Virus record (IMG/VR): IMGVR_UViG_3300042545_000332
Coordinates: 1-42,489 of that record
Length of the DNA stretch: 42,489 bases
Reading direction: 5' to 3' (one strand)
From: a virus
Numbering within the stretch: position 1 is the first letter of the stretch; each line of letters begins with the position of its first letter. This document shows positions 2 to 30,926 of this stretch, one piece after another. Below the pieces are notes generated by a model. The model saw only the letters and a list, made by a program, of their open reading frames with translations, was not told where the DNA came from and searched no databases. A program made the position numbers and the translations under genes.

Positions 2-460
2 AGTGGAACGACAGGTACTTCAGGCACAAGCGGAACGACAGGGGTAGATGGTACAAGTGGGACTAGCGGAACAGCAGGTACCACAGGTACCTCAGGTACG
101 ACAGGTACAAGTGGAACAACTGGAACGTCAGGAACAAGTGGAACTACAGGAACAGATGGTACAAGTGGGACTAGCGGAACAGCAGGTACTACAGGTACAA
201 GTGGAACGAGTGGTACTTCGGGTACGACAGGGACAAGTGGTTCTTCAGGAACGACAGGTACATCAGGTACGACAGGAACCTCAGGCTCTAGTGGTACATC
301 AGGTACGACAGGTACTAGTGGAACTAGCGGTACAAGTGGATCAGATGGCACAAGTGGAAGTAGTGGTATAGATGGAACTTCGGGTACAAATGGAACTAGT
401 GGTACGTCAGGTACAACTGGAACTAGTGGAACTAGTGGAGCAGATGGGAACTCAAAAGGT
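2..460 (+). repeat. Collagen-like GTS/GTT repeat tract
   Basis: Degenerate 9-base units (ggt/gga aca/act agt/tca/aca) encode Gly-Thr-Ser and Gly-Thr-Thr triplets with occasional Val-Asp, Ala and Ile-Asp interruptions. The shifted frames give long artificial Val-Gln-rich open frames, which are shadows. Such tracts form collagen-like trimeric stalks in phage fibres and can change length by recombination. Confidence 0.85.
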
Positions 461-2518
461 CAGATTTATTATTTTAATCAATCTCAAAGTTCAGATGTAA
501 GTCCATATAAGGTTTTATCAATAAATCCATCGGGTGCTGCTCAACAGACTGTGTCTAATGCGTTAGGTTCAAATCAGCAGAATAAATTAGTTAGTTCATT
601 TTTAACTCCTGCGTTAGGCTTTGCGGTTATTCCTGCTGGTGTACAAACATTCCATAATCATTTTTTAAAGCAGGCATCAAACGACCACATACAAGTATAT
701 GTAACTATCGAGCTTGCTAACTCAGCAGGCGTAGGGTATGGTACGATATTGGCAACCAATACTGCTGAGATTGGATGGGTAAGTGCATCAATTCCTGTAG
801 AGACAACTACAGATTTAGTTTTGCCAACGACAACAATCCTGACAACTGATAGGATGATTGTTAAGATATATGTTAATAATAATGATAGCACAAGTCATAC
901 TGTCAATTGGTATACTGAGGGCGTGTCTTATTATTCATATGCAATTACATCCATTGCTCCTTCAGCAGGGACAAGTGGTACTAGTGGTACATCAGGTACT
1001 TCAGGTGCTCAGGGTACAAGTGGGGCAAGTGGTAGTTCAGGTACTTCGGGTACGTCAGGTGCTCAAGGTACAAGCGGTGCTAGTGGTACATCAGGTACAT
1101 CTGGTACGTCAGGAGCTCAGGGTACGAGTGGAGCAAGCGGATCGTCAGGTACCTCAGGTACAAGTGGACTAGCAGGCACATCAACAAGAGTTGAGCAAAA
1201 CTATACAGCCACAGCAGGGCAAACGACATTTACCTTCACAGGTGGATACACAGTTGGTCTTATAGATGTATATGTCAATGGAGTTAGATATTTGCCTACA
1301 GACTACACAGCCACTAATGGCACAACAGTAGTGTTAGGCATAGGGCTATTGGCAGGAGATGCTGTGACTATATTAAACTATACGTCAAGCATTGCAGCTT
1401 TGCCAACATCAAGAAACGTGCAAGACTTTACTGCAACAGCAGCACAGACTACGTTCACAGTTACTAATGGCTACATAGTAGGACTTATAGATGTATTTGT
1501 TAATGGTTCAAAGTTAACTTCTTCAGAGTTTACAGCTACTAATGGAACGACATTTGTTCTTACAGTAGCTTCTACAGTAGGAGACCAAGTGCAGAGCATT
1601 AACTACACAGCAAGTGTTAATGGTATAAGTGGTGCAGGGACAGCTAACTATGTGCCTAAGTTCACAGCAAGTGGTACGATTGGAAATAGTTCTATTTTTG
1701 ATAATGGAACTAATGTGGGGATTGGTACTGGTTCGCCAAATGGAGGATTAACTGTTGTAGCACCTTCTTCTTCTACTGCTATTAGTTTATGGGGAAGGTC
1801 TACTGATAATTATTCTGCATTAAGATTTCAAAGTAATACAGGAGCAACCACTTATTCAACTATATATTCAGATGCCTCTAATTTAATTTTTGAAAACAAT
1901 GGTTCAGAACGTATGCGAATTACCTCTACTGGGAACATAGGGATTGGAACGACTGCACCTAAATCATATGGAGTATTAACTATAAGTGGACAAACTATTG
2001 GATTAAGTAATATAGCAGTAGATGTTAATCAGGCTTTTAAACTTAACAATTATTATAATAGTAGTACTGGGACAGATAAAACTATTTCAACAGGATATGC
2101 AGCACAAATGGGTTTAGATAATTCAAATGGTGGATTAACATTTTCAAATAGTTCAAGTTCAGTTACAGCAGATGGTAATATTACAACTACTGAACGTATG
2201 CGGATTACAAGTGGGGGAAATATAGATACTAAAGGTAATCCAATTTTTGCTCATAGTGGCTCAATTACTATAAATGGGACTTATCAAACTATCTTTACTG
2301 CTGCTTCAAATTCAGTTTATTTAGTTTCAGTTAATACAAGCATAAGTGCAGGTGATGGTACTTATGGATTATTAATTGCCTTTAATGAAGCTGATAAGGT
2401 ATGTGATTTAATAAGTGGAAATAATTTATCATTACAATTTAGTGGTGATAATGTTCAAATAAGGTCAAACAATAGTGCAGGATACGCTACTACTTGGACT
2501 GCAACTCGTTTAAAATAA
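2..2518 (+). CDS. Collagen-like tail fibre protein, 5' truncated by window edge
   Basis: The frame that ends at 2518 is open without a stop back to base 2, so the gene enters from outside the window; a GTG at 551 is only an internal codon. In order the visible part holds a long Gly-Thr-Ser/Thr collagen-like tract (about bases 2-460), a short globular segment (about 460-965), a second G-T-S/G-A-S tract (about 967-1183), two tandem beta-rich repeats of about 70 residues sharing the core IDVYVNG/IDVFVNG and TATNGTT (about 1190-1620), then GIGT and [13 protein letters not shown] elements typical of trimeric phage fibre shafts (1660-2240) and a distinct C-terminal tip of about 90 residues. There is no recognisable S74 chaperone at the end. 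It is most likely a receptor-binding fibre. The Ser/Thr-rich repeats make it a possible substrate of the glycosyltransferases encoded nearby (inference). Confidence 0.85.
967..1183 (+). repeat. Second collagen-like GTS/GAS repeat tract
   Basis: A shorter tract of Gly-Thr-Ser triplets with a higher-order unit ([10 protein letters not shown] followed by S/TSGTSGTS) repeated about three times within the same fibre gene. Codons vary between copies, so the protein repeat is better kept than the DNA repeat. Confidence 0.8.
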
Positions 2519-2526
2519 ATAATAAG

Positions 2527-3651
2527 ATGACAAAAATATCCAATCAATATAGTTTAACCAATATACTAACGGCTGATTTAGCAAATAGTCGTTTAGGGAT
2601 AAATAATGTTAGCCCAACAGTAGCTTTGGATGTGACAGGGGCAGGGAAGTTTTCGGGAAATATAACTGCTGACGGAGGAACTCCTGTTGTTTTAACTGGA
2701 ACAGGAACAGTTAATATATGGAACTCAAGAGTAATTTTAAGACAAAATGGAGCTGCATTAAATAGAGCAGAACTTTATTCAGATAATGGTATTCAGTTAA
2801 CAACAAATTCAGGGTTTGGTGTTGTAATACCAAACGGCAACGTAGGAATTGGAACAACTTCGCCAAGTTCAATTTTAGATATTTATAAATCTCAAAATAC
2901 ATCTACAACTTTTCTTATAAAAAATAATAATGCTGGAGCAAGTGCAGAAACTTATATTACTGCTTCAAATGGAACATATATTACAAGTATAGGAACAAGG
3001 GGAACAGGAACAGCAGCATATTTAGGTTTAGATACTAATTCGGGAATGCTTAATTATGATGGAAATACTTCATTAACTATTAATGCGACAAATCCAAGTG
3101 GGGTAATTAAATTTACTACTAATGGATTTACTGAACGTATGCGAATATTAGCTAATGGGAATGTGGGTATAGGAACTAGTTCTCCAACTAATTTGCTTCA
3201 AGTAAATGGTACTGGTTATTTTAGTGGCAGTCTAGGTAGTGGTGGTACTATTAGTGGTAGTAGTGTAAGTGCTTCTGGGACTACAAGTGGTTCTAGCATA
3301 GTTGCTAACTCAGCAATAATTACATATAACGTACAGCAATATTATTATGGAAACACTTTTACCTTCACTCCTCCTAATGCATTAAACTCTGGTTCGTTTA
3401 ATTCTGAGATGCGTATTTATTTGGTTTGGGTAATTGGAGTAAATGGTTATACAGAAGCAGGATTAAGAGTTTGGTTGATAGCAATGAATGGAGGAGGTAC
3501 AGCATATAATGCAAATGAACTTTTAGGAAGAGATGCAAATGGAGGAACAGGATTAAATATATCTAGGTCTTCAGCATCACAAATATCTATTAACTCTAAT
3601 AATAATGCTTTCATTAAATTTGTAAGTATCATGCAGTTAAATGCTTTTTAA
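2527..3651 (+). CDS. Short tail-fibre protein with GNVGIGT repeats
   Basis: The start chosen is the ATG at 2527, nine bases after the previous gene's stop; the frame is open a little further upstream from a TTG but that lies inside the previous gene. The 374-residue product begins with a segment (LTADLANSRLGINNVSP) matched closely by the next gene, followed by DVTG, GNVGIGTTSPSS, ERMRILANGNVGIGTSSPT shaft elements and a Gly/Ser-rich stretch, and ends in a unique tip of about 110 residues. This is the architecture of trimeric phage side fibres. No S74 autoprotease domain is present. It sits in tandem with two other fibre genes on the same strand, presumably one transcript. Function as a receptor-binding or fibre-tip protein is inferred from these shaft motifs. 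Confidence 0.8.
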   Translation: MTKISNQYSLTNILTADLANSRLGINNVSPTVALDVTGAGKFSGNITADGGTPVVLTGTGTVNIWNSRVILRQNGAALNRAELYSDNGIQLTTNSGFGVVIPNGNVGIGTTSPSSILDIYKSQNTSTTFLIKNNNAGASAETYITASNGTYITSIGTRGTGTAAYLGLDTNSGMLNYDGNTSLTINATNPSGVIKFTTNGFTERMRILANGNVGIGTSSPTNLLQVNGTGYFSGSLGSGGTISGSSVSASGTTSGSSIVANSAIITYNVQQYYYGNTFTFTPPNALNSGSFNSEMRIYLVWVIGVNGYTEAGLRVWLIAMNGGGTAYNANELLGRDANGGTGLNISRSSASQISINSNNNAFIKFVSIMQLNAF

Positions 3652-3671: not shown

Positions 3672-4739
3672 ATGTCAAAAAATACTAATTTATCCTTCCT
3701 GACAGATTACATTACTGCCGACATCACCAATGGTAGAATTGGTATTAATAACGCTTCGCCTTCATATGCTTTTGATGTGACAGGAATTGCTAGGACAAGT
3801 ACGTCAGCGTATTTTGCAACTACTAGTGGGTCTGTGGGAATTGGGACTACGAGTCCAAGTTCAAAACTTCAAGTAGCAAATGGAGATATTAATATTCAAA
3901 ATGCTAATCAAACTACTGGAGATTTTAGTCAAGCTCAATCTTTAATATTTTCTCAAGAAACTGCAATTACTGGAGCAAGTATAAAAGCTATTAGGGAAGC
4001 ATGGAGTTCAATGCCTTTTGCACTAACATTTTTAACAAATTCAGTTGCATCATCGCTTACAGAAAAAATGCGAATTACAAGCATTGGTAATGTAGGTATT
4101 GGAACTACTGATCCTCAAAAGTTATTACATATAGCTAATACATCTTCTGGAACTACTACAGATGCTTTAATGTTACAAAATGGTGGCAATACTTCTAATG
4201 TTGCTACAGGTACTAGATTAATATTTAAAATTGGGGGGTTTGCAAGTAATCAAATTAATACTTATGCAACTATTGATGCAGTTATTAATGGAGAATCAGC
4301 AATAGATTTATTATTTAAAACACCAAGCTATGGTATATTATTTCCTCCAAACGAAAGGATGAGAATCACTGGAAGTGGTAATGTAGGAATAGGAACAAGT
4401 AATCCTGGATACGCACTTCAAGTTGCTGGAACTACAGTTGCAAGTAATTTCTTTAGTGCAACTGGAACTCAACTTATTCAAGTAAATACCTGGACAACAT
4501 TTTATACATTAGCAGCAGACCAAGGTATGTATACAATATCAATAGGTTTAGGAGAAAATGTGTTTGCAACTTGGTATGCTTATGGAACAGTTTTTTCAGC
4601 ATTTACTATATGTATATTTCAATCACTTACTAATGGAACATTAGTTCAAATGAGATTATCAGGAATGGATGTACAAGTTCTTTTGGGGTCTGGAGCAAGT
4701 TTTGCTAGAACCCTAAACTATAAAATTTTAAGGTCTTAA
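3672..4739 (+). CDS. Short tail-fibre protein, paralogue of the upstream gene
   Basis: The 355-residue product opens with LTDYITADITNGRIGINNASP, nearly the same as the upstream protein's beginning, then carries GSVGIGTTSPSSKLQV, EKMRITSIGNVGIGTTDPQ and ERMRITGSGNVGIGTSNP repeats spaced through the middle. The C-terminal 90 residues form a different tip, which loosely resembles the end of the first fibre (both have a LSLQFSG/MRLSG strand followed by VQ and a Ser-containing turn). The starting ATG is 21 bases after the previous stop with an AT-rich leader. It is probably a fibre or fibre-tip subunit produced by duplication with tip replacement. The next gene downstream on this strand is a homing endonuclease, so this is the last of the three fibre genes. 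Confidence 0.8.
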   Translation: MSKNTNLSFLTDYITADITNGRIGINNASPSYAFDVTGIARTSTSAYFATTSGSVGIGTTSPSSKLQVANGDINIQNANQTTGDFSQAQSLIFSQETAITGASIKAIREAWSSMPFALTFLTNSVASSLTEKMRITSIGNVGIGTTDPQKLLHIANTSSGTTTDALMLQNGGNTSNVATGTRLIFKIGGFASNQINTYATIDAVINGESAIDLLFKTPSYGILFPPNERMRITGSGNVGIGTSNPGYALQVAGTTVASNFFSATGTQLIQVNTWTTFYTLAADQGMYTISIGLGENVFATWYAYGTVFSAFTICIFQSLTNGTLVQMRLSGMDVQVLLGSGASFARTLNYKILRS

Positions 4740-4744
4740 ACAAT

Positions 4745-4759
4745 AAACAATAAATATAT
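4745..4759 (+). repeat. Imperfect direct repeat, copy 1 (flanks endonuclease unit)
   Basis: aaacaataaatatat, matching copy 2 at 5558 at 14 of 15 positions. It forms the leader of the 11-codon remnant. AT richness means chance is possible, but both copies precede a start of the same gene family. Confidence 0.5.
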
Positions 4760-4793
4760 GACAAACTTTTTTTGGAGCGTATATCAGCTCTAA
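4758..4793 (+). pseudogene. 11-codon remnant copy of the start of the 5579 gene
   Basis: ATG at 4758 opens an 11-residue frame, MTNFFWSVYQL, ending in TAA at 4791. The gene at 5579 starts MNTNYFWSVYQLDTV, so seven residues in a row (FWSVYQL) are identical, yet the codons differ at Ser, Val, Tyr and Leu. The leader before each start is also shared. It reads as a leftover first segment of the gene, separated from the intact copy by the endonuclease gene. Confidence 0.65.
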
Positions 4794-4813
4794 AATAAAT
4801 TAAATTTAAACTA

Positions 4814-5566
4814 ATGGCATTCGTTTATAGACATATTAGATTAGACACAAATCAACCTTTTTATATTGGGATAGGAAAGGATGAGCGTTATTATTTTAGG
4901 GCGACTAAAAAAAGCCAAAGAAATATACATTGGAAAAGAATTGTAGCTAAAACTGATTATAGGGTAGAAATACTTATGGATGATATTACCTATGATGAAG
5001 CTAAAGAAAAGGAAATTGAATTTATAAAATTATATGGAAGGATAAATTTATCGAATGGACCTTTATGTAATATGACTGATGGAGGAGAAGGCAATTTAGG
5101 ATATGTAGCTACAGAAGAAACTAGAAAAAAGTTATCTAAATCTATAAGCGAATGGAATAAAAATAGAGTAAGAAGTGAAAAAGAAATTGAATCTTTATCA
5201 CAAAGAATGAAAGCATTCCAAAATGACCCTGATTTTATAAGAAAGAAAAATGAAGGATTAAGAAATAGCGAAAAGTTAAAAGCATTTAATGCTTTAAGAA
5301 AAGGACTTCCTGGTATAAAACATACTGAGGAAACAAAATTAAAAATGTCGTTAGCAAGAATTGGTAAAAAAGTTGCAAAAGAATTTGTTGACAAAAGATC
5401 AAAAAAGATAACACAAAAAACATTGTCAGGTGAATTTATAAAAATATGGGATTCAGCAAGAGAAATTCAAAGGGAACTTGGATTATCACAAGGCAATATA
5501 TCTAGATGTTGCAATGGGGAATACAAGAAAGCTAATGGATATAAATGGGAGTATTATAAACAATAA
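4814..5566 (+). CDS. GIY-YIG homing endonuclease
   Basis: The 250-residue protein starts with a variant GIY-YIG nuclease module: FVY at residues 3-5, YIG at 17-19, an Arg around 25-29 and the conserved Glu region EKEIEFIKLYG at 65-75. Two NUMOD3-like segments follow (TEETRKKLSKS near 100; PGIKHTEETKLKMS near 166-179), then a C-terminal NUMOD1/HTH-like DNA-binding segment (GEFIKIWDSAREIQRELG, then NISRCCNG-Y) at 206-246. This order is typical of free-standing phage homing endonucleases, which cut a cognate allele lacking them and spread by repair. The gene is very AT-rich, is bordered by a remnant of its neighbour's start and by a near-identical 15-base repeat, and interrupts a virion-gene series, all consistent with a mobile insertion. 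Confidence 0.88.
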   Translation: MAFVYRHIRLDTNQPFYIGIGKDERYYFRATKKSQRNIHWKRIVAKTDYRVEILMDDITYDEAKEKEIEFIKLYGRINLSNGPLCNMTDGGEGNLGYVATEETRKKLSKSISEWNKNRVRSEKEIESLSQRMKAFQNDPDFIRKKNEGLRNSEKLKAFNALRKGLPGIKHTEETKLKMSLARIGKKVAKEFVDKRSKKITQKTLSGEFIKIWDSAREIQRELGLSQGNISRCCNGEYKKANGYKWEYYKQ

Positions 5567-5572
5567 ACATAT
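5558..5572 (+). repeat. Imperfect direct repeat, copy 2 (flanks endonuclease unit)
   Basis: aaacaataaacatat, spanning the endonuclease stop codon and leading into the start of the 5579 gene. It differs from copy 1 at one position. Confidence 0.5.
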
Positions 5573-5578
5573 ATAAAA

Positions 5579-5998
5579 ATGAATACTAATTATTTTTGGT
5601 CAGTTTACCAGCTTGATACAGTTCCGAGTCTCGATGGGCTTGTGGATGTGGTTATCACAGTTCACTGGGGTAGAACAGCAGTAGAAGAAATATCAACAGA
5701 AGAAAAATATACAGCCCATGTTTATGGAACAATGGGATGTCAAACTCCTTCAGAGACAGACTTTACAGCCTATCCAGACTTGACATTTGAGCAAGTATGT
5801 GGCTGGCTTGAAAATGGGCTCGACTATGAGGCTATTGATGCAGGACTACAGCAGGATATTGATAATCAAATCAATCCTCCTGTGATTGTTTTGCCATTAC
5901 CATGGGTTCCTGAACCAACGACTACCACAACAACCACAATGGCTCCTCCTCCTCCTGAGCCAACAACTACTAGCACAACAACAGAAGCTCCTATTTAA
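5579..5998 (+). CDS. Small virion-associated protein with poly-Thr C-terminal tail
   Basis: A 139-residue protein. The first part (FWSVYQLDTVPSLDGL followed by VDVVITVHW) resembles a small phage protein family often found near fibre genes, with a WxxxxLDxxPxxxGxxDVV-xVHW pattern; I recognise the pattern but not a proven function. The C-terminal 35 residues are a Pro/Thr tail (PEPTTTTTTTMAPPPP and TTTSTTTEAP) very like the linkers in the 2231-residue protein at 20704. A partial copy of its start lies upstream of the endonuclease gene, so this gene was probably the target or re-created copy at the insertion. The Thr tail could be a flexible linker or a glycan-bearing stalk (inference). Confidence 0.65.
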   Translation: MNTNYFWSVYQLDTVPSLDGLVDVVITVHWGRTAVEEISTEEKYTAHVYGTMGCQTPSETDFTAYPDLTFEQVCGWLENGLDYEAIDAGLQQDIDNQINPPVIVLPLPWVPEPTTTTTTTMAPPPPEPTTTSTTTEAPI

Positions 5999-6009
5999 TT
6001 AGGAGTTTT
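5985..6009 (+). terminator. Probable rho-independent terminator overlapping a stop codon
   Basis: The stem aagctccta / taggagtttt has a 6-base perfect core (5988-5993 with 6000-6005), extended by a G-T and A-T pairs, a 6-base AT loop and a short T run. The 5579 gene's stop codon lies inside it. It would end the fibre/endonuclease transcript. Confidence 0.5.
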
Positions 6010-6048
6010 AAATGTTTTTAGTAATTTTGTGTTTGTTAAACATTTAAA
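6007..6048. promoter_or_regulatory. Promoter-like box inside an 11-base inverted repeat
   Basis: The arms tttaaatgttt (6007-6017) and aaacatttaaa (6038-6048) are perfect complements with a 20-base spacer. The spacer holds TAATTTTG (6022-6029), matching the Bacteroidota -7 consensus TAnnTTTG, 30 bases before the ATG at 6060. A palindrome around a -7 box is a plausible operator; it could instead be a weak hairpin. Confidence 0.45.
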
Positions 6049-6059
6049 TCAACTAAACA

Positions 6060-6455
6060 ATGAAAAAGTATCGTGATCTGTTAGGGTTAGTACATTATAT
6101 TAACCAGTCAATAGAACAAGGCAAGACCATAGGTCAAAAGAAATTAGTCAAGATAGGTGACTTATTAAAGCCACATATTGATGCTTACAACGACAAGAGA
6201 GATTGGATTTTATTATCTAACGCTAGTGTAGATGATGACAAGAATCTTATTGTTGATGAAAAGGGTGGATATAAATATACACCTGAAGGAGCACACAAGA
6301 GAGACAAAGAACTAATGGAATTGTTCATGTCTGACTTTGACTACACTCAAATTCAAATTAACTCACCATCTGAACTTGACCAATATACATTCTTGTATGG
6401 ATGGGTGAATGGTGTGAATTTTATTATTGAAGAAGAGGAAGAGGTAGAACTTTAA
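6060..6455 (+). CDS. Hypothetical protein, acidic C-terminus
   Basis: A 131-residue soluble protein that I do not recognise. It starts with a mostly helical, Lys-rich segment (MKKYRDLLGLVHYINQSIEQ), has a mixed charged middle, and ends in an acidic run (IIEEEEEVEL). No membrane segment or signal peptide is seen. Its last 32 bases overlap the end of the minus-strand glycosyltransferase gene in a tail-to-tail arrangement. A TAnnTTTG box and inverted repeat precede it, so it may be transcribed separately from the fibre genes. Confidence 0.6.
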   Translation: MKKYRDLLGLVHYINQSIEQGKTIGQKKLVKIGDLLKPHIDAYNDKRDWILLSNASVDDDKNLIVDEKGGYKYTPEGAHKRDKELMELFMSDFDYTQIQINSPSELDQYTFLYGWVNGVNFIIEEEEEVEL

Positions 6456-9291
6456 TTACATCCTCAGCTGTGATACTCCTTTGACATTCAAATTGTCGAG
6501 GAGTATTTTTATTAAATGGGCACCAATCGAAATCCCCTTTATCAAATTTTAACGCAGGGTCGTTCCAACAGCCGTGGCATACATTCTCGTTAACTACACG
6601 TATACAATTGAACTCATGTGCACGTGTAGTAAAGTTACTTATCATCACCACAGGTTTACCAATAGCCCACGCTAACCATGAAATTCCTGAGCTAAGTCCG
6701 ATAAAAAACTGACTATGGTAGATAACGCTCATAGTATTCTCAATGTCGATGTCATCTATCTTCTGGCAATGCTCAAATGGGTTATCTTCTTTACTGACAT
6801 TCACCACCTTGTAGCCTTTGTTATGCAAGTAAGTTATAACCTCTTGCCATCCATCTCTTGTCCAAAACTTACAGCCTGCTGTTGAGTTAGTAGCTATCGT
6901 CACATACTGCCCATACTTATTCTTACGCTTTCTAAACTTTAAGTTTGGCCTAAGCTCTTCAAACTCTAAGCCTAATATATTAGTGGCCGCCTCTTGTAGC
7001 TTTATCGTATTAGGTAGCACAGGTTCTTTATTCTCATCGTAGTGCCACCCGATATTATACTGAGCATAAATATTATTGACCACCATGCCAGGCTCGACTA
7101 GTTCTATCTCAGGGATGTCAAGTATATGGTTCCAAAATGTGGAGAGTATTACTTTGCAGTTATGTTTCTTTTGAAATGCAAGTGCATATGGTGCCCATGC
7201 GATGGTGTCGCCTAGTGACTTACTAGCCAAGGTGATGAACACTCTTCTGTTTTCTAATGATAACTTATACTCGTAGACTAATTCATTATACTCAAATACT
7301 TTAATGGTCCAGTCAGTATAGTACTCCCTATTTAGTCTCACCCATGAGTTAGAGTTAATAGTATTCTCATAATGACATACATTATTCTCGTCAAAGTATT
7401 GCACCTTAAACTTAGAGTTGACAGGCGACTTAATCTCTAGAAATGGTTGCTCAATAAAGTATTTATATATGTGCACATCTTGGTCTTCTTTTTTATTCTG
7501 CAAGATGGTCTTATAGAAGCCCATGTACTCAATTCCAAAATAATAGGTTGAACTTAACTCAGGTATATTATAATTAGCTGTAATAGTATTTAGGTCTGTA
7601 TCAATCGGTTGGATGTATTTATCATATCTTGAGCGATAAACGGGTAAGTTGTGAGCGATAATTGGTAAGCCATAAGATATAGCCTCTCTAAGAACTAATG
7701 GGTTGCACTCCCATGTACTATTGAACATAAATATGTTAGCATGCTTTAAGAACTCGTCCACGTCATCCCTCTCTCCCCACACCTTGACATTACTTGGTAG
7801 GTCAGCCATTAAGGGCTCCCAATAATCTTTAAAGTTGCCTGCTTGGTTGCCCACAAAATTAAAATTAAAGTTAGGGTTAGCACGGGCAATCTCTATCCCC
7901 TCGGCTTGGTTCTTGCCGGGTGTCCATAGTCCCACGTTGACCACATTATTTATGCCCGGAAGTTTCTTTGATTCCTTTTGGTCAATAGGGTACTCAATGA
8001 CTTGCTTGTAAGATGGCAGGTGAGCGAAGGTATCAAAGTGGTAAGACGTGCAGAAAGCATACCCATCAGGGTGATATAACTTAGTCTTAGGATCAAATGA
8101 GACATCATGACAAGTCTCAACAATCTTGTAAAGTCTATTAGGTTTATAGAGTTCGCTCATTACATCTGCATCGAACCGCTCGGATGGTTCGTGAATGTGA
8201 ATTAAATCTGGTTTGAATTTATTAATTACATCAAACAGCTCCATTTTATTCTCATACAGAGTTGTGAAGTTTGTGCCAACAATATCTTTTATTTTATTTC
8301 TTTGTACCACATAGTCTAGGCTGTAGCAATTGTACTCAACCACATAAGGTGTAATCTTATCCCCTAAAGCCTCTAGCGTTTTTAATACAAAGGCAGGCAT
8401 GCCCCCTGTTGATAGGTGAGGAACTAGGTATAATACTTTATTGGGCCTGATCATTTTTAGCATCTCATCTTTTCTTTTCTCTCCATGGTAGAATAGTAAC
8501 TTGTCCTCGCTTGCAGGCACCCTACCCCAATCACCTATCATGTAGTCTTGGCCAGTAAAAATATTATTATGGTCAATCAAGTTGACTAAATCTAAATTTG
8601 CGTTCATATAAATATATGGTAAGCCCTTTTGAATATTATACTTCCATAATAGCACGTTGGCTATGGTCTCCTCATTATAGGCTGCGTAATAACTATTGTC
8701 AGCCATCACCTGTGGGTGCGTGCACATCTGATACCACTCATCTAAGAAGTCAATGCAGTTTTTATTAGCGACAAAGTAGCCTGTCTGCCTGTAGCGTTCT
8801 CTAACATATTGGTCCACACCAAATAGCTCGCAAGCCGGGTGCTCAAGTGTTGTGCTTAGGTCATCCCTGCTCTCAGCTCCCCCCCTGTCTCCTACGTGCA
8901 AGTAGTCATATATGCCCTCCACAAAATATGGGTGGCTTGACTCATCATCAAACATATTAAATATAGTATGTGCATACTTTGTAGCTACAGAGTCTGAGTC
9001 AATGTAGGCCACCGTGTAAGCAAATTTGTTTATAGCATCCTTGACAATAAGTGGGCGTTGAATTAAAAGTTTATAGATATTAATATCTGATCGGTCAATG
9101 AATCTATTTTGCTTAGTCTCTGCCACATCGCAGTCCCATCTAATGGTAAAGGTTGCACCCTTAATCTGCCTGTCTGAGTTTAGCATATATACTAGAGTTG
9201 GAATGCTAGTATAATAATTTAATGACTCTACACACGCCTCAACAGTATCAGCATATGACTCATTTGCATATAGAACGAATGCTTGCTTCAT
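6424..9291 (-). CDS. Three-domain glycosyltransferase fusion with C-terminal autotransporter-type O-heptosyltransferase
   Basis: A 955-residue cytoplasmic-type protein with three sugar-transfer units. Residues 1-280 are GT-A-like, with AYIDSDS giving a DxD motif at 98-100. Residues 285-600 resemble GT4 enzymes: a Gly-rich loop LSTGGMPAFVLK (293-304), HIHEP, and the E-x7-E signature at E528/E536. Residues 605-955 match the strand-loop-strand O-heptosyltransferase family (TibC/Aah type, GT9-like): a beta-rich start, SLGDTIAWAPY (692-702), a GLSSGISWLAWAIGKPVV core (865-882) and the cysteine cluster C905-x2-C908-x15-C924-x11-C936 ending QFECQRSIT. In TibC a similar cysteine set binds iron, and the enzyme moves heptose from ADP-heptose to Ser of beta-helical adhesins. 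It is the only large minus-strand gene within the structural block and looks richer in G+C than its neighbours, suggesting separate acquisition. Target specificity is not visible from sequence. Confidence 0.88.
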   Translation of the reverse strand: MKQAFVLYANESYADTVEACVESLNYYTSIPTLVYMLNSDRQIKGATFTIRWDCDVAETKQNRFIDRSDINIYKLLIQRPLIVKDAINKFAYTVAYIDSDSVATKYAHTIFNMFDDESSHPYFVEGIYDYLHVGDRGGAESRDDLSTTLEHPACELFGVDQYVRERYRQTGYFVANKNCIDFLDEWYQMCTHPQVMADNSYYAAYNEETIANVLLWKYNIQKGLPYIYMNANLDLVNLIDHNNIFTGQDYMIGDWGRVPASEDKLLFYHGEKRKDEMLKMIRPNKVLYLVPHLSTGGMPAFVLKTLEALGDKITPYVVEYNCYSLDYVVQRNKIKDIVGTNFTTLYENKMELFDVINKFKPDLIHIHEPSERFDADVMSELYKPNRLYKIVETCHDVSFDPKTKLYHPDGYAFCTSYHFDTFAHLPSYKQVIEYPIDQKESKKLPGINNVVNVGLWTPGKNQAEGIEIARANPNFNFNFVGNQAGNFKDYWEPLMADLPSNVKVWGERDDVDEFLKHANIFMFNSTWECNPLVLREAISYGLPIIAHNLPVYRSRYDKYIQPIDTDLNTITANYNIPELSSTYYFGIEYMGFYKTILQNKKEDQDVHIYKYFIEQPFLEIKSPVNSKFKVQYFDENNVCHYENTINSNSWVRLNREYYTDWTIKVFEYNELVYEYKLSLENRRVFITLASKSLGDTIAWAPYALAFQKKHNCKVILSTFWNHILDIPEIELVEPGMVVNNIYAQYNIGWHYDENKEPVLPNTIKLQEAATNILGLEFEELRPNLKFRKRKNKYGQYVTIATNSTAGCKFWTRDGWQEVITYLHNKGYKVVNVSKEDNPFEHCQKIDDIDIENTMSVIYHSQFFIGLSSGISWLAWAIGKPVVMISNFTTRAHEFNCIRVVNENVCHGCWNDPALKFDKGDFDWCPFNKNTPRQFECQRSITAEDVIKVLPLPLLQ

Positions 9292-9330: not shown

Positions 9331-9699
9331 ATGACAATAGAAGTTAGTATTGGAGAAGCTCTTGACAAACTGTCGATACTTAGCATTAAGATGGACAAGA
9401 TAAAAGACCAAACAAAGCTTGAAAATATTTCCAAAGAATATTTTAGATTGATTCACCCAATAGATGAACGTATGTTGATTGACCCTTTATATAAAGCTTT
9501 AAAATCAATAAATGAAAAGTTGTGGGATATCGAAGATGATATAAGAGTATGTGAAAGACACGGGGATTTTAATTTAAATTTTATTAGATTAGCACGTATG
9601 GTTTATCAAAATAATGATAGAAGAGCCGCTCTAAAGAAAGAAATAAACATTAAATACAACTCAGAATTTATGGAAGAAAAATCTTATAATAATAATTAG
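9331..9699 (+). CDS. DUF6165-like small protein
   Basis: A 122-residue, mainly helical protein with the pattern VSIGEALDKLSILSIKMDKI, then LWDIEDDIRVCERHGDFN, FIRLARMVYQNNDRRAALKKEIN and an EEKSY ending. This matches my memory of the DUF6165 family, found in phages and in bacterial polysaccharide or glycosyltransferase clusters; its biochemical role is unknown to me. Here it starts 39 bases from, and points away from, the start of the three-domain glycosyltransferase, which fits that association. It begins the plus-strand run leading to the terminase. Confidence 0.65.
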   Translation: MTIEVSIGEALDKLSILSIKMDKIKDQTKLENISKEYFRLIHPIDERMLIDPLYKALKSINEKLWDIEDDIRVCERHGDFNLNFIRLARMVYQNNDRRAALKKEINIKYNSEFMEEKSYNNN

Positions 9700-20703: not shown

Positions 20704-23700
20704 ATGGCAGAATTACAAAGAAACTTTTTGCAAGGGATAATGAACAAGGATCTCGATCCTCATTTCCTGCCTGATGGACAATATCGTGACGGATTAAATA
20801 TAATTGTTGCTGATTCAGACGGAGGATTTGTGGAAATTGATGGTTCCAATAATGGGTCTGTGCAAAACTATCTTGGTAATGAATTACAAAACACAAGTTT
20901 AGGATTGACTAATGCTCAATGCATTGGGTCAATATCTTACGAGGCTAATAATTTAATTTATTGGCTTGTCGCTTCGGATACAGCTGATGCTATTTATGAG
21001 TACAATGAAAATTTAGGGTTAACAACGATTGTTTTAAAGGCTACTAAAACTACACCAACAACACCGTCAATTTTAAACTTCAACAAAACATTCTACGTTA
21101 CAGGGATAAATTATATCAATGGATTATTATTTTGGACAGATAATTACAACCCTCCACGTAGAATTAATATTGAGCGTGCAAAGAATTATGGTGTAAATGG
21201 ATTTACTGAGGAGGATATTAATGTAATCGTTGCACCTCCTCTTCATGCTCCAAATATAGCATTAACATTAGATGGGAGTGCTAATAATTTAGAAAATAAA
21301 TTTATTTATTTTTCATATCGATATAAATACATTGATGATGAGTATAGTGCATTATCTCCATTTTCTTCTGTAGCCTTTTTTCCAAAACCTTATGAATTTG
21401 ACTATGGTGTATCTGAAAATATATCAATGGTTAATCAGTATAATAAGGCAACCATTTCATATAATACAGGAAGTAAAAATGTAAAAGAAATACAATTAGT
21501 ATTTAGAGATACTCTTTCTTTAAATACTTATGTAATAGATAATATTGACAAGGCTGCAAATGGGTTTTCAGACAATGTTGATGAACAATTTATATTTTCA
21601 AATAATAAAGTATTTACTATTCTTGATCCTAATCAAATAAATAGATTGTTTGATAATGTGCCATTAAAAGCTAAATCTCAAGACTTAATTGGTAGTCGTT
21701 TAGTATATGGTAACTATACACAATTTTTTAATTTAGTTGATTGCGATGCTGAACCAATTGCCCCTGCATTTTCTTTAACTTATAATATTGCAACCATAGG
21801 AGCAACTCCTATGCCAACTTTTAAAAGTAATAGAGACTATGAAGTAGGGATTGTTTATTTAGATGATTATGGTAGAAGCACAACAGTTATAACTCCAACT
21901 GACAATACTAATACTATTTTTATACCACCAGCATATGCAAAATATTCTAATAGTTTAAGAGTTACAATTTCAAAAGATTTTAAACCGCCATGTTTTGCTA
22001 CATATTATAGAATCGTTTTAAAACAAAACAAGCAAGACTTTTATAATATATTCCCATTGACTTATTTTTCTGATGGGGAATTTAAATGGTTTTTATTAAA
22101 TCAAGCTGATGTTGATAAAGTTCCTGTTGGTACTTATTTATATTTCAAAGATTATACTTCAACAAGTACAGATATACAATATAAAATATTAGATGTTGTT
22201 TCAAAAAGTGCTAACTTTTTAAATGATAGTAGATCACAGCCTGCTGGAGTTTATTTTAAAATAAAAATAGATGCTAATTTATTGCCTCTTGTATATTACT
22301 ACAATTTTACCAATATAACATTAAGTACTAATGCAATTGAACCTGTAAATAACATGTATAGTGTTGCTGAAAATGCAATATTTTATGGAGTTGGTATAGC
22401 AGGAGATATGGTAACTGCTCCAGGTAATGTATATTCTGGTGTTAATGATATACGATTTAAAATTGAAATATCAGATACTAATAAATTTAAATATTATGCA
22501 TTTTTATTAGGTACTCCATATACTTATGTAAATGAAGTTACCATTACTCCTGGATCAAATCAAACATTATCTTATACATATAATAGTATTACTTATTCAT
22601 GTAACATACGATTTAATTCTATTACTAATCTTGTATTAAAAGATTATTGGATAGTTAATTGTAGAAGCAATGGAAGTCTTAATATTTTTGGAGGTAAAAC
22701 AAATTACTCATCTACTGCATCAGATTGTCCATATGGTTTTGTTACAGGAACTAATTGGAATTTAAATGGTGGATATGCTGGGGATAGAGAAATAAAAGCA
22801 GGAGCGGTTCTTACAATAAAAATGAAAGAACCTAATAATGGCAATACTACATCAACACAAACATTTTTAGCAAGTAAAGATTATGTAAACATTGAAGAAT
22901 GGTTTATTGAAGGAAATATTTATGCTAGTTGGGTTCAATATCAAGGAGCCCTTAGTATTGGTCCTAAAAATGTATGTTTTAGAAGAATACATAATTTTCA
23001 ACTTTATTCAGGAAATCAATATAGGTGTAGCCAAGGAGGTGTAATTAATTCAACAACTTTGGATTATCCTGTATTTATGTGGATTTTTGGATTTACTACA
23101 GGATCAGGACCAACTATGGAAGTTACTTTTGATTTTCAAGAATCAGAATATCCATCAATTTTTGAAACAGTCCCAACAGACAATAACCAAGATATATATT
23201 ATGAGCTTTCGAACACGTATCCTATTATCGGTGGCAATCACTATGGAAATGCTCAAGATCAAGTTATTGGAGTTGATCCGGCAATAGTTGATTTAAATAA
23301 GATTTATAACATAAATGAAAATTTAGATTTTAACGCTTTTGCTTGGGGTAATAATGTGGAGAGTTATCGCATTAGAGATGACTGGAATGCAGCCACAATG
23401 GAATTTAGTCCAAGGGCTAATTCTACTGTTGAAGGATATGAGCAACAAACGCTTGTTCAAGCTTTGACATATAGTGGTGTATACCAACAAACAACAGCCA
23501 TAAATAGATTAAATGAGTTTAACTTATCATTAGGTAACTTTAAATATTTAGATAGATTCTTTGGATCTATAGAAAAAATATATGCAAGAGACACAGATTT
23601 AGTAGTGTTACAAGAAAATAAAATATCTAAAGTCCTTTACGGTAAAAACTTATTAAGTGACTCTACCGGTGGTGGAGTGGTTGCATCTATTCCTGAAGTA

Positions 23701-26700
23701 TTAGGAACACAGATTTCATATGTTGGCGAGTATGGAATAAGTAATAATCCTGAAAGTTTTGCTATTTGGGGTAACAACTTATACTTTACAGATGCTAGAC
23801 GTGGAGCTGTTCTTCAGTTAGCTGAGAATGGGCTATTTGAAATATCATCTAATGGTATGAAGAACTGGTTCAAAGCTAATCTAGACCCAGCAACACAAAA
23901 GCTAGGAATGTTTGATCCTTACTTTGAGCATTATGTTTTAGCTAATAATGACCAAGCTGTACAATATTGTGTATTTAGTGTTAACGAAGATGCAATTAAT
24001 TTTAGTACAGCAGCTGTAAACAATCAAGATGCATTTAATATTGAGTCTAATAACGAATGGTATATTGAGGTTCCAACTAATAATTGGTTAACATTAACTC
24101 CATTATATGGAAATGATAATACATTAATTAAGTATAGTGCACTTGTTAACACAGGAGCACAAAGAAGTGTTACTGTACTTGTTAGAGGGTGTAACGCAAC
24201 TTATGATATTGTATTTACTCAAGCAGGGATAACAACTACCACAACTACAAATGCTCCTTGTCAATTATATCAAAACCAAACAGCAAATCCTTTGCCTGGA
24301 ATTAGTTATACAAGATGCGATGGTGTTACTTTTACTAATAGAACCATTGGTAGTGGAGCAACAATATGCGTACAATATGAAACTTTAGGTGGATTCAATT
24401 CGCAATATTTAACTTTAGTAAGTGATTGTATAACTCCAACAACTACAACTACAAGTACAACTACTACTCAAGCTCCTATAATAACTTCAACTACAACATT
24501 CCCAGGATGTCAAGAGTGGAGAAATGAGTCAGATGAGGAAGCGATAATAACTTATACGCCATGTGGAAGTAATACGCCTGTAAGCAATTATGCTTTAGCA
24601 ACTACTTCTAGCGTATGCGTTGTTTATGGTTCATTAACTGTTATATCTGGAGGCACAGTTACTTTGGTTGGAAATTGTTCAGCCCCTGCTACTACTACAA
24701 CAACTAGTACAACTACGCTGCCAACATATTATTATTATGTTTTACAACCATGTGTTGGTGGAGCAAATGTTAATATTAGAACTACTACAGTAATAGCAGT
24801 TGGCAGAGCCGTTCAAATAGGAAATGATTGTTATACAGTTACAGGAAATGCGAGTGTAAATACTAACGATTTAGTTAATACTAATCAATATGTGGATTGC
24901 GAGATTTGTCAATCTTTCACGCCATCTACAACAAGTACAACCACAACAACACAGGCACCATTAACGTATTATTACTTTAATGCAACAAGATGTTATGATG
25001 GAACACCGGTTGTGGTTCAAAGTTTGACTGAATATCCAACAGGGGTAGTTGCTTTCTCTTCAGCTACTAACTATTGTTATACTATATTAGGGGAGTCAGT
25101 TGCACCTGCAATTGATGAAGTTAACTCGCTTGTGGATTCATGTTTTGAAATTCAATGCGAAAGTCCAGATATACCTTCTACTACAACTACAACTACTCTG
25201 CCTCCATACAATTATTATGCAGCAGAACCATGTGGCGGTGGAGAAGTAATTAGTATTAGAACTACATCAACTATAACTTTAGGTAAAGTAGTTCAAATAG
25301 CAGGATTTTGTCATACAATAATTGCTATAACAGGAGTTAATCCTAATGATTTAATTGATACAACTGAGTATATAGATTGTTTTGATTGCGGATATATTCC
25401 CCCATCAACTACAACTACTACTACTGAGGCTCCATATTATTACTTTAATGCAACAACATGTTATGATGGGACACCTGTTGTAGTTCAAAGTTTAACAAAT
25501 TATGTTCTTGATACAGTTGCTTATTCATCATTTACAAATCTTTGTTACACAATAGGTTCAGCGGCTGTTGGCCCTGCAATTGATGAGGTCAACTCAACAG
25601 TTGATAATTGTTTTAATGTAATATGCGGTAGCCCTTCCCCACCTACTACTACTACCACAACCACTGCTTCATTGCAATGGTATCAATTAACTAAATGTTC
25701 AGATAGTAGTATAGACTACTCAGCAGGTTATGCAGCTGGATATGCTTCAATAAATTCTCGTGTTACTGACTTTGGCTCTAATCCTTGGATAGTTACTAAT
25801 ATATATTCTTCAGATCAAGGTGGATCAGGGTTATTTATATTTAACACTGGTTTTACAGGATGTCCTGAAATTACTACTACTACAAGTACGACTACTTTTC
25901 AACCTATTTGGTATGAGGTAACTAATTGTCAAGATGGCACTATACTTAATTCAATTAGTTATCCAGCTTTAACTTTTGATTTTGGTCAAAGAGTTACTAT
26001 ATCGGGTGTTAATTATGTAGTAACAGATTTTTATGTAGCTAACCCTGGAGGAATTTTATATCCAATTGTTCAAACAGGATTGATAGGATGCCCTACTACA
26101 ACGACTACAACGAGTGCTCCTACAACGACTACTACAACTGTAGCTCCTGCGACAACTACAACAACACAAGCACCTGCTACTACAACTACTCAAGGGCCAA
26201 CTACTACTACAACTAGTACAACAACTCTTCAGACAGTTTGGTATCAACTTGCTCGTTGTTCTGATGGGGGAGTTGTTAATTCAATTGGATATACCATTGG
26301 TTCATTTAGTATTGGAAATAGGGTGACAATAAGTGGAATAACATATGTAATTATAGATTTCTTTACTAACAATCCGGGTGGAACTCAGTATACACTTACT
26401 TCTACAGGATTGACAGGATGTCCTCCTAACACTACTACAACAACTACATGTAATCCTACTGCTAATTGGCAGTTTAATGGTAGTTACAATTGTTATGGAA
26501 CATGTAATAAATATCAAGTAGAGCAGGATCAAAACCCTTGTTCTCCAACATATAACCAAACTCGCCAAGGCTCAGTAGTAGAATTTAATTCTACATTCTG
26601 TGGAGGATGTTGTGGTCAATCTACAGCGGCAAACTGGACTAATGAAGGTGGTGCATATTGCGACAACTGTGTATCTAAGCAATTACAACGTGATACTAAT

Positions 26701-27399
26701 CCATGTAGTGGTTCATACAATCAAACTAGAGTTATAAATAGCGGTACTGCATGTAACTACACAGCTAACTGGGTTAACTCAGGTTCTTACGATTGCTATG
26801 GTACATGTAATAAATATAACATTGAAGTAGATAATAACCAATGTTCATCAACATATAACCAAACTAGACAAGGATCTTTAGTAGAAAGTAACTCTACATT
26901 CTGCGGAGGATGTTGCGGCCAAGGCACAGGAGCTAATTGGGTAGATAATGGAAGCACATTCTGTTCAGATTGTAATTTATATCAACCACAAATAGATAAT
27001 AATCCTTGTTCGTTTACTTATGGAGACACAAGAAATGTAGACTTAGGTGTTAGCACAGCTTGCGGAACTTGGGTTCAATCTTTCTACTGTGTAGGATATG
27101 ACAAGTGGTCTAAAGAAACTAATTCTTGTACAGGAAATATACGTAATGAATTTTTAGTAGAAGTTAATAGTGCTTATTGTGGATATGTTCCGCCTCCAAC
27201 TTGTAGAACATACCAAATAGTAGGGGATAATGCAGATGAGTCTGTAAATGGAGTTTACACCAATTGTGCTGGAGGTAGTGATAGCTTCTCATTCTTTGGT
27301 GGACCAGGTACAGTAGGATATATATGTGCTCAAATATCAACTGTTTATGTTACAAGTGGTAATGGATATGCTACAGATACAGGTAGTAGCTGTACGTAA
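20704..27399 (+). CDS. Giant stabilization-type tail protein with BACON-like domain and poly-Thr-linked module array
   Basis: A 2231-residue virion protein. Residues 1 to about 1110 resemble the tail stabilization/tubular proteins of crAss-like podoviruses, starting with FLQGIMNKDLDPHFLPDGQY and rich in Tyr/Asn beta strands. Residues 1116-1177 look like a BACON domain (NNWLTLTP, NTGAQRSVTVLVRG, IVFTQAG), a fold linked to carbohydrate or mucin binding. After that come small modules of about 55-65 residues separated by poly-Thr linkers: two kinds with YYY starts (A: 24724, 25207; B: 24964, 25435), three WYQL/WYEV modules (25675, 25906, 26236), three C-x-x-Y/W modules (24253, 24508, 27205) and a Cys-rich block (26449-27186). 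The array probably extends from the tail as an adhesin. It is longer than the usual family member because of the array. Three glycosyltransferase-type genes follow immediately. Confidence 0.8.
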   Translation: MAELQRNFLQGIMNKDLDPHFLPDGQYRDGLNIIVADSDGGFVEIDGSNNGSVQNYLGNELQNTSLGLTNAQCIGSISYEANNLIYWLVASDTADAIYEYNENLGLTTIVLKATKTTPTTPSILNFNKTFYVTGINYINGLLFWTDNYNPPRRINIERAKNYGVNGFTEEDINVIVAPPLHAPNIALTLDGSANNLENKFIYFSYRYKYIDDEYSALSPFSSVAFFPKPYEFDYGVSENISMVNQYNKATISYNTGSKNVKEIQLVFRDTLSLNTYVIDNIDKAANGFSDNVDEQFIFSNNKVFTILDPNQINRLFDNVPLKAKSQDLIGSRLVYGNYTQFFNLVDCDAEPIAPAFSLTYNIATIGATPMPTFKSNRDYEVGIVYLDDYGRSTTVITPTDNTNTIFIPPAYAKYSNSLRVTISKDFKPPCFATYYRIVLKQNKQDFYNIFPLTYFSDGEFKWFLLNQADVDKVPVGTYLYFKDYTSTSTDIQYKILDVVSKSANFLNDSRSQPAGVYFKIKIDANLLPLVYYYNFTNITLSTNAIEPVNNMYSVAENAIFYGVGIAGDMVTAPGNVYSGVNDIRFKIEISDTNKFKYYAFLLGTPYTYVNEVTITPGSNQTLSYTYNSITYSCNIRFNSITNLVLKDYWIVNCRSNGSLNIFGGKTNYSSTASDCPYGFVTGTNWNLNGGYAGDREIKAGAVLTIKMKEPNNGNTTSTQTFLASKDYVNIEEWFIEGNIYASWVQYQGALSIGPKNVCFRRIHNFQLYSGNQYRCSQGGVINSTTLDYPVFMWIFGFTTGSGPTMEVTFDFQESEYPSIFETVPTDNNQDIYYELSNTYPIIGGNHYGNAQDQVIGVDPAIVDLNKIYNINENLDFNAFAWGNNVESYRIRDDWNAATMEFSPRANSTVEGYEQQTLVQALTYSGVYQQTTAINRLNEFNLSLGNFKYLDRFFGSIEKIYARDTDLVVLQENKISKVLYGKNLLSDSTGGGVVASIPEVLGTQISYVGEYGISNNPESFAIWGNNLYFTDARRGAVLQLAENGLFEISSNGMKNWFKANLDPATQKLGMFDPYFEHYVLANNDQAVQYCVFSVNEDAINFSTAAVNNQDAFNIESNNEWYIEVPTNNWLTLTPLYGNDNTLIKYSALVNTGAQRSVTVLVRGCNATYDIVFTQAGITTTTTTNAPCQLYQNQTANPLPGISYTRCDGVTFTNRTIGSGATICVQYETLGGFNSQYLTLVSDCITPTTTTTSTTTTQAPIITSTTTFPGCQEWRNESDEEAIITYTPCGSNTPVSNYALATTSSVCVVYGSLTVISGGTVTLVGNCSAPATTTTTSTTTLPTYYYYVLQPCVGGANVNIRTTTVIAVGRAVQIGNDCYTVTGNASVNTNDLVNTNQYVDCEICQSFTPSTTSTTTTTQAPLTYYYFNATRCYDGTPVVVQSLTEYPTGVVAFSSATNYCYTILGESVAPAIDEVNSLVDSCFEIQCESPDIPSTTTTTTLPPYNYYAAEPCGGGEVISIRTTSTITLGKVVQIAGFCHTIIAITGVNPNDLIDTTEYIDCFDCGYIPPSTTTTTTEAPYYYFNATTCYDGTPVVVQSLTNYVLDTVAYSSFTNLCYTIGSAAVGPAIDEVNSTVDNCFNVICGSPSPPTTTTTTTASLQWYQLTKCSDSSIDYSAGYAAGYASINSRVTDFGSNPWIVTNIYSSDQGGSGLFIFNTGFTGCPEITTTTSTTTFQPIWYEVTNCQDGTILNSISYPALTFDFGQRVTISGVNYVVTDFYVANPGGILYPIVQTGLIGCPTTTTTTSAPTTTTTTVAPATTTTTQAPATTTTQGPTTTTTSTTTLQTVWYQLARCSDGGVVNSIGYTIGSFSIGNRVTISGITYVIIDFFTNNPGGTQYTLTSTGLTGCPPNTTTTTTCNPTANWQFNGSYNCYGTCNKYQVEQDQNPCSPTYNQTRQGSVVEFNSTFCGGCCGQSTAANWTNEGGAYCDNCVSKQLQRDTNPCSGSYNQTRVINSGTACNYTANWVNSGSYDCYGTCNKYNIEVDNNQCSSTYNQTRQGSLVESNSTFCGGCCGQGTGANWVDNGSTFCSDCNLYQPQIDNNPCSFTYGDTRNVDLGVSTACGTWVQSFYCVGYDKWSKETNSCTGNIRNEFLVEVNSAYCGYVPPPTCRTYQIVGDNADESVNGVYTNCAGGSDSFSFFGGPGTVGYICAQISTVYVTSGNGYATDTGSSCT
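24229..26450 (+). repeat. Poly-threonine linkers between repeated modules
   Basis: At least ten stretches of ACA/ACT/ACC/ACG codons (for example 24436-24495, 24691-24723, 24925-24957, 25171-25200, 25405-25431, 25645-25668, 25873-25899, 26095-26232, 26431-26448) encode six or more Thr, often ending in LPP, EAP or QAP. Between them lie small modules that recur in pairs and triplets. The longest linker (26095-26232) is a Thr/Ala/Pro mucin-like tract of about 46 residues. Tandem low-complexity DNA of this kind can expand or contract. Confidence 0.8.
26449..27186 (+). repeat. Cysteine-rich tandem repeat block
   Basis: Units built around ANW, CYGTCNKY, NPCSxTYNQTR and CGGCCGQ recur about every 55-95 residues: near-duplicate copies begin at 26461 and 26764, with half-units at 26632 and 26935 and a degenerate last copy near 27067. 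The Cys spacing is conserved, suggesting disulfides or metal sites. It forms the near-C-terminal part of the 2231-residue protein. Confidence 0.75.
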
Positions 27400-30182: not shown

Positions 30183-30926
30183 ATGCCTTCAATTAATTGT
30201 CCAAAATGTTATACTATTACCTATTCCCCAAATCAAAATGGATGGACATCGTACCATTCATACGAGCCTGAGTGGATGGTGACAATGAATAACTTTCTTT
30301 ATACTTTTAAAGATGGTAATTTATATAAGCACAATAGCAATGAAACTAGAAATAGTTATTATGGGACTTTATACCCATCTAAGATAACAACCATATTTAA
30401 CAACGAGCCATCTCAAACAAAGCAGTTTAAAACAATTGCTACTAACTCAACTACTCCTTGGGAGACTGCTATTCTTTCTGATCAAGGAGCAGGATTTATA
30501 GATGCTGATTATTATGATTTAAAAGAAGGGACATGGTATGCGTACATACGCAGACTTCCTGGTGATAATAATTTATCCATGATATCTGCCCAAGGAATTG
30601 GCAATGTGACTTCTTATGTAAGCAATATATTAATATTTAATTTTCATGTAGGTAATATCATTAGTGATGGCGATATTTTATATTGGAGCAATAATGGCAA
30701 TCTTGAATTAATAGGTAGTGTAATTTGGCATACAGATAACTCAATATTTGTTAATCAAACAGGAAGCACTCCTCCTAACGGAGCATTTATATTATTTATT
30801 AAAAATAGTGTGGCTGAGTCAACTCCAACAAGAGGGACTTATTTGTCAGTAGAACTTACTAATAGTGATACTGAGTATACAGAAATGTATATGATAACAT
30901 CTGATGTATTTAAATCATATCCTTAA
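30183..30926 (+). CDS. Virion tail protein
   Basis: A 247-residue beta-rich protein. NGWTSYHSYEPEWMVTMNN, then FLYTFKDGNLYKHN and a TTIFNNEPSQTK strand form a set of motifs I associate with C-terminal regions of tail proteins of crAss-like and related phages (GWTS-SYxPEWM, NxFYTFKxGxLYxHN, NDxP). Here it stands alone as a gene. It is probably part of the tail knob or hub. The N-terminal CPKC pair could bind a metal. Preceded by a TAnnTTTG box. Confidence 0.6.
   Translation: MPSINCPKCYTITYSPNQNGWTSYHSYEPEWMVTMNNFLYTFKDGNLYKHNSNETRNSYYGTLYPSKITTIFNNEPSQTKQFKTIATNSTTPWETAILSDQGAGFIDADYYDLKEGTWYAYIRRLPGDNNLSMISAQGIGNVTSYVSNILIFNFHVGNIISDGDILYWSNNGNLELIGSVIWHTDNSIFVNQTGSTPPNGAFILFIKNSVAESTPTRGTYLSVELTNSDTEYTEMYMITSDVFKSYP

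Follow-up and report, generated by a model that had tools for sequence, protein, structure and literature searches.

O-glycans on Gly-X-Thr or Gly-X-Ser triplets occur in the GPT repeats of Bacillus BclA and in vent-worm cuticle collagen, where the sugar is carried by Thr, and have been proposed to stabilise the triple helix; these collagens contain some proline and are modified by enzymes of their own. Protein O-glycosylation is also carried out by the TibC/Aah bacterial autotransporter heptosyltransferases (BAHT, TIGR04414; PDB 4rap, 4rb4), which decorate bacterial adhesins. Of these, TibC forms a dodecamer ring built by a beta-hairpin thumb (PMC4358343). Virion glycans of mycobacteriophages were located by Freeman et al. 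(2023), as cited in PMC12619734, at the C-terminal ends of capsid and tail tube subunits. Here we report that the IMG/VR virus record IMGVR_UViG_3300042545_000332 (42,489 bases, analysed as a whole and referred to below as the window) carries a modular glycosyltransferase (GT) gene, whose product joins a putative GT-A unit, a GT4 unit and a TibC-like unit and probably O-glycosylates the proline-free collagen-like tail fibre of the same phage. On the account given in that citation, the mycobacteriophages are similar in that phage-encoded glycosyltransferases act on the phage's own virion proteins, as is proposed here, and differ from the present case with its fused TibC-like enzyme and collagen-like tail fibres. 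Unlike the BclA and vent-worm collagens, the Gly-Thr-Ser (GTS) tracts of the phage tail fibre are nearly proline-free and are accompanied by a TibC-like enzyme. When a phage encodes a glycosyltransferase close to its fibre genes, DNA or host-surface modification is the role usually assumed, and a literature search returned no paper on phage collagen glycosylation by TibC-type enzymes.

The assignment of the C-terminal third of the enzyme to the TibC/Aah family, made in a preliminary description of the window from its sequence, was borne out by profile and structure comparison. Residues 626–948 of the 955-residue protein matched the hepto_Aah_TibC model TIGR04414 with 262.7 bits (E 5e-78; curated cutoff 200), and TibC (4rap) was matched by phmmer with E 2.3e-51. 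In an AlphaFold2 model based on a 34-sequence alignment (mean predicted local distance difference test score, pLDDT, 87.5), residues 606–955 superimposed on 4rap with Z 36.8 and a root-mean-square deviation of 2.2 A over 345 residues, so that the TibC/Aah fold is represented at full length, including its N-terminal beta-barrel. Residues were mapped through the phmmer alignment onto those that the description of the TibC structure singles out (PMC4358343): the catalytic base Asp110 of TibC corresponds to D695, and the donor-site residues Thr226, Lys230 and Trp305 are all kept as T804, K808 and W872. The cysteine cluster C-x2-C-x15-C-x11-C, which the preliminary description had placed at residues 905–936, is exact, and C905, C908, C924 and C936 pair one to one with Cys339, Cys342, Cys358 and Cys370 of the TibC iron finger; none of the four cysteines varies across 22 aligned relatives or across the 64 distinct phage sequences, and iron binding is predicted.

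Unlike TibC and Aah, the phage enzyme is fused to two further units. The GT4 part of the proposed fusion was confirmed by matches of residues 446–553 to PF00534 (44.2 bits, cutoff 26.4) and PF13692 (38.6 bits, cutoff 27) and by the modelled GT-B/GT4 fold of residues 282–600 (VIA-align Z about 26). The GT-A part is plausible: residues 1–281 had no meaningful Pfam match in 18 of 18 members and no PDB sequence match, and their invariant D98-x-D100 motif among relatives, together with a confident model of alternating alpha and beta elements, makes a GT-A unit likely, though not proven. Since full-length relatives are carried by dozens of independent IMG/VR contigs, the open reading frame (ORF) is not an assembly artefact.

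To relate the enzyme to its candidate substrate, viral records were picked by DNA pattern alone, for GTS collagen, for GPQGPQGP (Pro-Gln) collagen or for a neutral 16-mer, and 50 records of each kind were tested; the control records were matched for neither environment nor host. TIGR04414 was found in 20 of the 50 GTS-selected records and in one of 50 in each control set (20/50 against 2/100, Fisher P 1.8e-9), with enrichment in all three size classes. The two control records with TIGR04414 bear Gly-(Ser/Thr)-(Ser/Thr) collagen as well. Of the neutral records, just one had the repeat, and it was also the only one with the enzyme, the distance between repeat and enzyme domain being 0.6 kb; among the 100 controls taken together the enzyme was present in both records with at least three pattern hits and in none of the 98 others (P 2e-4, with a threshold set after the counts had been seen). 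In the reverse direction, the repeat was detected in 28 of 29 enzyme records of at least 35 kb compared with one of 31 neutral records of that size; the single exception (G108) stops within a truncated GTSGTSG ORF. A collagen-like ORF was present in the fetched flank of 34 of 73 enzyme sequences and loci, nearly always with Ser/Thr-rich tracts, and at many loci a collagen-like fibre ORF lies 0.6–5.4 kb from the enzyme. In these tracts, Thr or Ser occupied 87% of X positions and Ser or Thr 85% of Y positions, proline not being among the common residues, whereas the Pro-Gln control collagen had Pro at 44% of X positions. The window itself fits this pattern: in agreement with the Ser/Thr-dense virion genes noted in the preliminary description, its collagen-like tail fibre consists of 34% Ser plus Thr (65% in the best 60-residue stretch). 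The 5' end of this fibre gene is outside the window, and a complete version in a relative (L008) encodes 1258 residues.

The pairing was also seen in an isolated phage and in a genome collection. The Microcystis phage Mel-JY01 carries both genes with 1.7 kb between them: its fibre ORF, which contains GTS/GSS tracts, is at least 1016 residues long, and its enzyme gene (4750–8430) encodes a 1226-residue protein running from GT4 to TibC, which is annotated as 'methyltransferase FkbM'. Neither the enzyme nor the repeat was found in two phages that share the backbone of the window phage, MW202828, with 67% terminase identity, and Flavobacterium phage elemoA, with 44%. Among genome-collection loci, a Ser/Thr collagen ORF was present in the fetched flank of 6 of 12 phage-side genes and of none of 39 canonical TibC-like genes (P 5e-5). 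At least one of these loci (L084) is viral, with a head-closure gene on the contig, and Ser/Thr collagen ORFs also lie near TibC-like genes on L073, which carries argJ, and on L078, which carries an adenylosuccinate lyase-like gene, suggesting that cellular genomes, including bacterial chromosomes, may use the enzyme–collagen pairing too. As to annotation, the Mel-JY01 fibre ORF (L498, PP395634.1, 2–3052) is open to the record start and annotated only at its C-terminal end (2519–3052), and minus-strand coding sequences are annotated over the collagen repeat.

Several residues set the phage enzyme apart from TibC. Arg286 of TibC is in contact with the adenine of ADP-heptose, and TibC lacking it was inactive or much less active (PMC4358343); in the phage enzyme it corresponds to Thr853, and this position is Thr in 51 of 63 phage homologues and Arg in 56 of 63 bacterial homologues, counts that represent related sequences and not independent events. 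The thumb region comprises 17 residues in 49 of 64 phage sequences and 27 in 52 of 63 bacterial ones, likewise related and not independent, and with a thumb about 10 residues shorter on the phage side a dodecameric, adhesin-type mechanism appears doubtful. Pro300, the stereoselectivity residue of TibC, is replaced by Ser867, and the Aah equivalent is likewise Ser. Thus, of the ADP-heptose pocket expected from the preliminary description, the Thr, Lys and Trp were retained and the Arg was not; heptose as the sugar is therefore doubtful, as is the name heptosyltransferase, and heptose was dropped as the certain donor. Because the adenine-contacting Arg and the full-length thumb are both missing, the enzyme was not classified as an autotransporter heptosyltransferase. 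No autotransporter domain was detected among the ORFs of the window in Pfam and PHROG scans, and in a quick tree the enzyme fell into a phage-only clade of 51 phage sequences (Shimodaira–Hasegawa-like approximate likelihood ratio test 99); this clade, the pairing with a collagen-like fibre and the lack of an adjacent autotransporter distinguish it from TibC and Aah. Judged by these residues, the chemistry of the phage enzyme appears TibC-like, with an uncertain donor sugar and assembly state.

A scan of viral contigs yielded 71 loci with relatives, many of them full length, and revealed considerable variation in module composition. An N-terminal S-adenosylmethionine-dependent methyltransferase is added in some relatives (L026, L029, L039; of the FkbM type in L028), the GT-A unit is absent from L011–L013, and in some relatives the modules are divided between two genes, one for the methyltransferase plus GT-A and one for GT4 plus TibC. 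In close relatives the TibC-like unit is better conserved than the GT4 unit (identities of the GT-A-like, GT4 and TibC-like units 89, 79 and 97% in L003 and 95, 79 and 92% in L004), and the lower conservation of GT4 suggests module exchange. Relatives in public databases include A0A7S9XE01 (Virus NIOZ-UU157), full length with 52% identity, and A0A6J5SVC1 (uncultured Caudovirales phage), which shares its family with the window enzyme and bears the database name 'Glycosyltransferase Aah/TibC'; a literature search returned no report of a collagen association, a DUF6165 partner or modular variation for either. In nearly all loci the enzyme gene runs opposite to the flanking virion genes, with a gap of only some 40 bases to the divergent DUF6165 gene. 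Loci L075 (11109–14003) and L084 (11472–14669) encode a large transglutaminase-like protein that follows the TibC-like gene downstream.

In the window, a gene for a DUF6165 protein, absent from the preliminary description, stands head to head with the enzyme gene at a distance of 40 bases. DUF6165 was found with 52 of the 73 enzyme sequences examined and was the next gene in nearly all of the 52. In L065–L072 it directly follows the enzyme gene on the same strand with a slight overlap, in the GTS-selected records G014 and G021 it also directly follows on the same strand, and in Synechococcus phage S-SRM01 the order is glycosyltransferase, DUF6165 homologue and nucleotide-sugar epimerase. The DUF6165 model had no Foldseek match in the PDB at E ≤ 0.001, the top VIA-align hit (Z 7.4) being a helical bundle, and DUF6165 was not named in any paper found by literature search. 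DUF6165 is probably a partner, accessory or adaptor of the enzyme. A general partnership with the collagen repeat was ruled out, as only 4 of the 50 GTS records carry DUF6165, in three of which it is close beside the TibC gene. The conserved DUF6165 neighbour, the additional methyltransferase modules and the split genes make it doubtful that the enzyme is self-contained, as had been supposed.

We propose that the enzyme glycosylates the (Gly-Thr-Ser/Thr)n fibre in the cytoplasm, ahead of virion assembly. The TibC-like C-terminal unit is the constant part and would probably prime the Gly-X-Y repeats with a sugar on Ser and perhaps on Thr, Asp695 serving as catalytic base and Lys808 engaging the donor phosphate; lengthening of the glycan would probably fall to the GT4 and GT-A-like units, an order of priming and extension that we infer, and the fused methyltransferase of some relatives would probably cap it. 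The glycan would probably stabilise or shield a triple helix that has nearly no proline, with DUF6165 as a probable accessory or adaptor. The earlier idea of a glycan on phage fibres has thereby gained a statistical link to fibres and been redirected: virion O-glycosylation is strengthened, and the most likely substrate has become the proline-free Gly-(Ser/Thr)-(Ser/Thr) collagen-like tail fibre, a strand-loop-strand adhesin being an improbable target. Tentatively, the observations may reflect a dedicated prokaryotic and viral system of collagen O-glycosylation, in which a TibC-like primer that is no longer an ADP-heptose dodecamer works with exchangeable modules for extension and capping and with DUF6165 as a helper, and in which the glycan on proline-free Gly-Thr-Ser collagen takes the place of (hydroxy)proline in the triple helix. 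If enzyme and substrate are as proposed, a common class of phage glycosyltransferase would acquire a testable function, the folding of proline-free Gly-Thr-Ser phage collagens would be accounted for, and the production of glycosylated recombinant collagen would gain a natural enzyme; Mel-JY01, as an isolated phage with both genes, makes the hypothesis testable now.

Several observations weigh against a collagen-directed enzyme. TIGR04414 was not seen in 30 of the 50 GTS-collagen records, although many of these are fragments, and in only 9 of the 21 records bearing both genes were they within 10 kb of each other (5.6 expected at random, P 0.06); the two genes are clearly close together in the main family, though not throughout. 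Shared aquatic phage lineages could contribute to the association, given metagenomic records and controls unmatched in environment and host. That the co-occurrence is altogether a by-product of aquatic phage ecology or ancestry, with enzyme and fibre not acting together, we consider very unlikely: despite the weak proximity signal in GTS-positive records, the pair recurs in contigs that range from 30 kb to 735 kb and differ in the genes they carry, in a cyanobacterial phage isolate and on contigs bearing cellular genes, and the sister phages that have no enzyme have no repeat either. The known substrate of TibC is a beta-helix and not a collagen chain, and TibC glycosylated Ser but not Thr in the peptides tested (PMC4358343). 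The window phage also offers another target, as the 2231-residue virion protein at 20704–27399 contains a mucin-like Thr tract (TTTTTTSAPTTTTTT, also written TTTTTTSAPTTTTTTVAPATTTT), which could be modified instead, the collagen link then being secondary. We regard a target in this or another virion protein as distinctly unlikely, since the Ser preference of TibC speaks against a Thr tract and the genome-wide association, in a survey that covered collagen repeats, was found with collagen.

Remodelling of host lipopolysaccharide or capsule against superinfection is the usual reading of phage glycosyltransferases in fibre islands (PMC7029224); on that reading the gene would be near fibre genes only by sharing a variable host-recognition island, and GT4 and GT-A units are indeed typical of surface polysaccharide enzymes. 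It is nevertheless an unlikely explanation here, because the unit with the strongest match is of a family that O-glycosylates proteins and because the enzyme is associated with a single kind of fibre, the only Pro-Gln collagen record with the enzyme being one that has Ser/Thr collagen too. A DNA-modifying enzyme for hypermodified bases is highly improbable: the GT-B unit can be aligned with the structure of T4 alpha-glucosyltransferase (Z about 22), but this likeness is generic to GT-B and weaker than that to dozens of other structures, and the gene stands beside fibre genes and not nucleotide-modification genes. To our knowledge, the TibC-like unit has no DNA-modifying relatives, which also counts against this role. 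A collagen-directed O-glycosyltransferase thus remains our preferred reading of the locus, the features of which are listed in Table 1.

Table 1. Features of the enzyme locus and of candidate substrates in the window (aa, amino acids).
Feature	Position	Strand	Basis
Collagen-like tail fibre, (G-T-S/T)n tracts and GIGT-type fibre repeats, proposed substrate	2–2518	+	PF01391 E 1.6e-29; tail fibre phrog_5073, phrog_1806
First G-T-S/T collagen tract	2–455	+	composition
Second G-T-S collagen tract	968–1186	+	composition, PHROG scan
Tail fibre protein adjoining collagen fibre	2494–3651	+	phrog_9942
Second tail fibre protein, paralogue of 2494–3651	3672–4739	+	phrog_9942/18345; common cluster
Modular glycosyltransferase gene (GT-A-like, GT4, TibC-like)	6424–9291	-	ATG start, 955 aa; Pfam/TIGR profiles and structure model
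TibC-like unit with N-terminal beta-barrel, residues 601–955	6427–7491	-	TIGR04414; 4rap
Predicted iron-finger cysteines, residues 905–936	6484–6579	-	invariant among relatives
GT4 (GT-B fold) unit, residues 282–600	7492–8448	-	PF00534; 6eji/HepE (VIA-align)
Putative GT-A unit, residues 1–281	8449–9291	-	invariant DxD (D98, D100)
DUF6165 protein, 122 aa, predicted helical bundle	9331–9699	+	PF19662 49.7 bits (cutoff 27); model pLDDT 89
Mucin-like Thr tract (TTTTTTSAPTTTTTT...) inside 2231-aa virion protein	26092–26238	+	alternative O-glycosylation target

The terminase relatives of the window phage were mostly from Flavobacterium and Cellulophaga phages, which points to a flavobacterium as its probable host. 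A homing endonuclease (HNH/NUMOD) gene at 4814–5566 separates the fibre genes from the enzyme cassette; homologues of the endonuclease are found near the cassette in several relatives, and the protein encoded at 30183–30926 bears the C-terminal domain of the crAss-like phage muzzle protein (PF25729).

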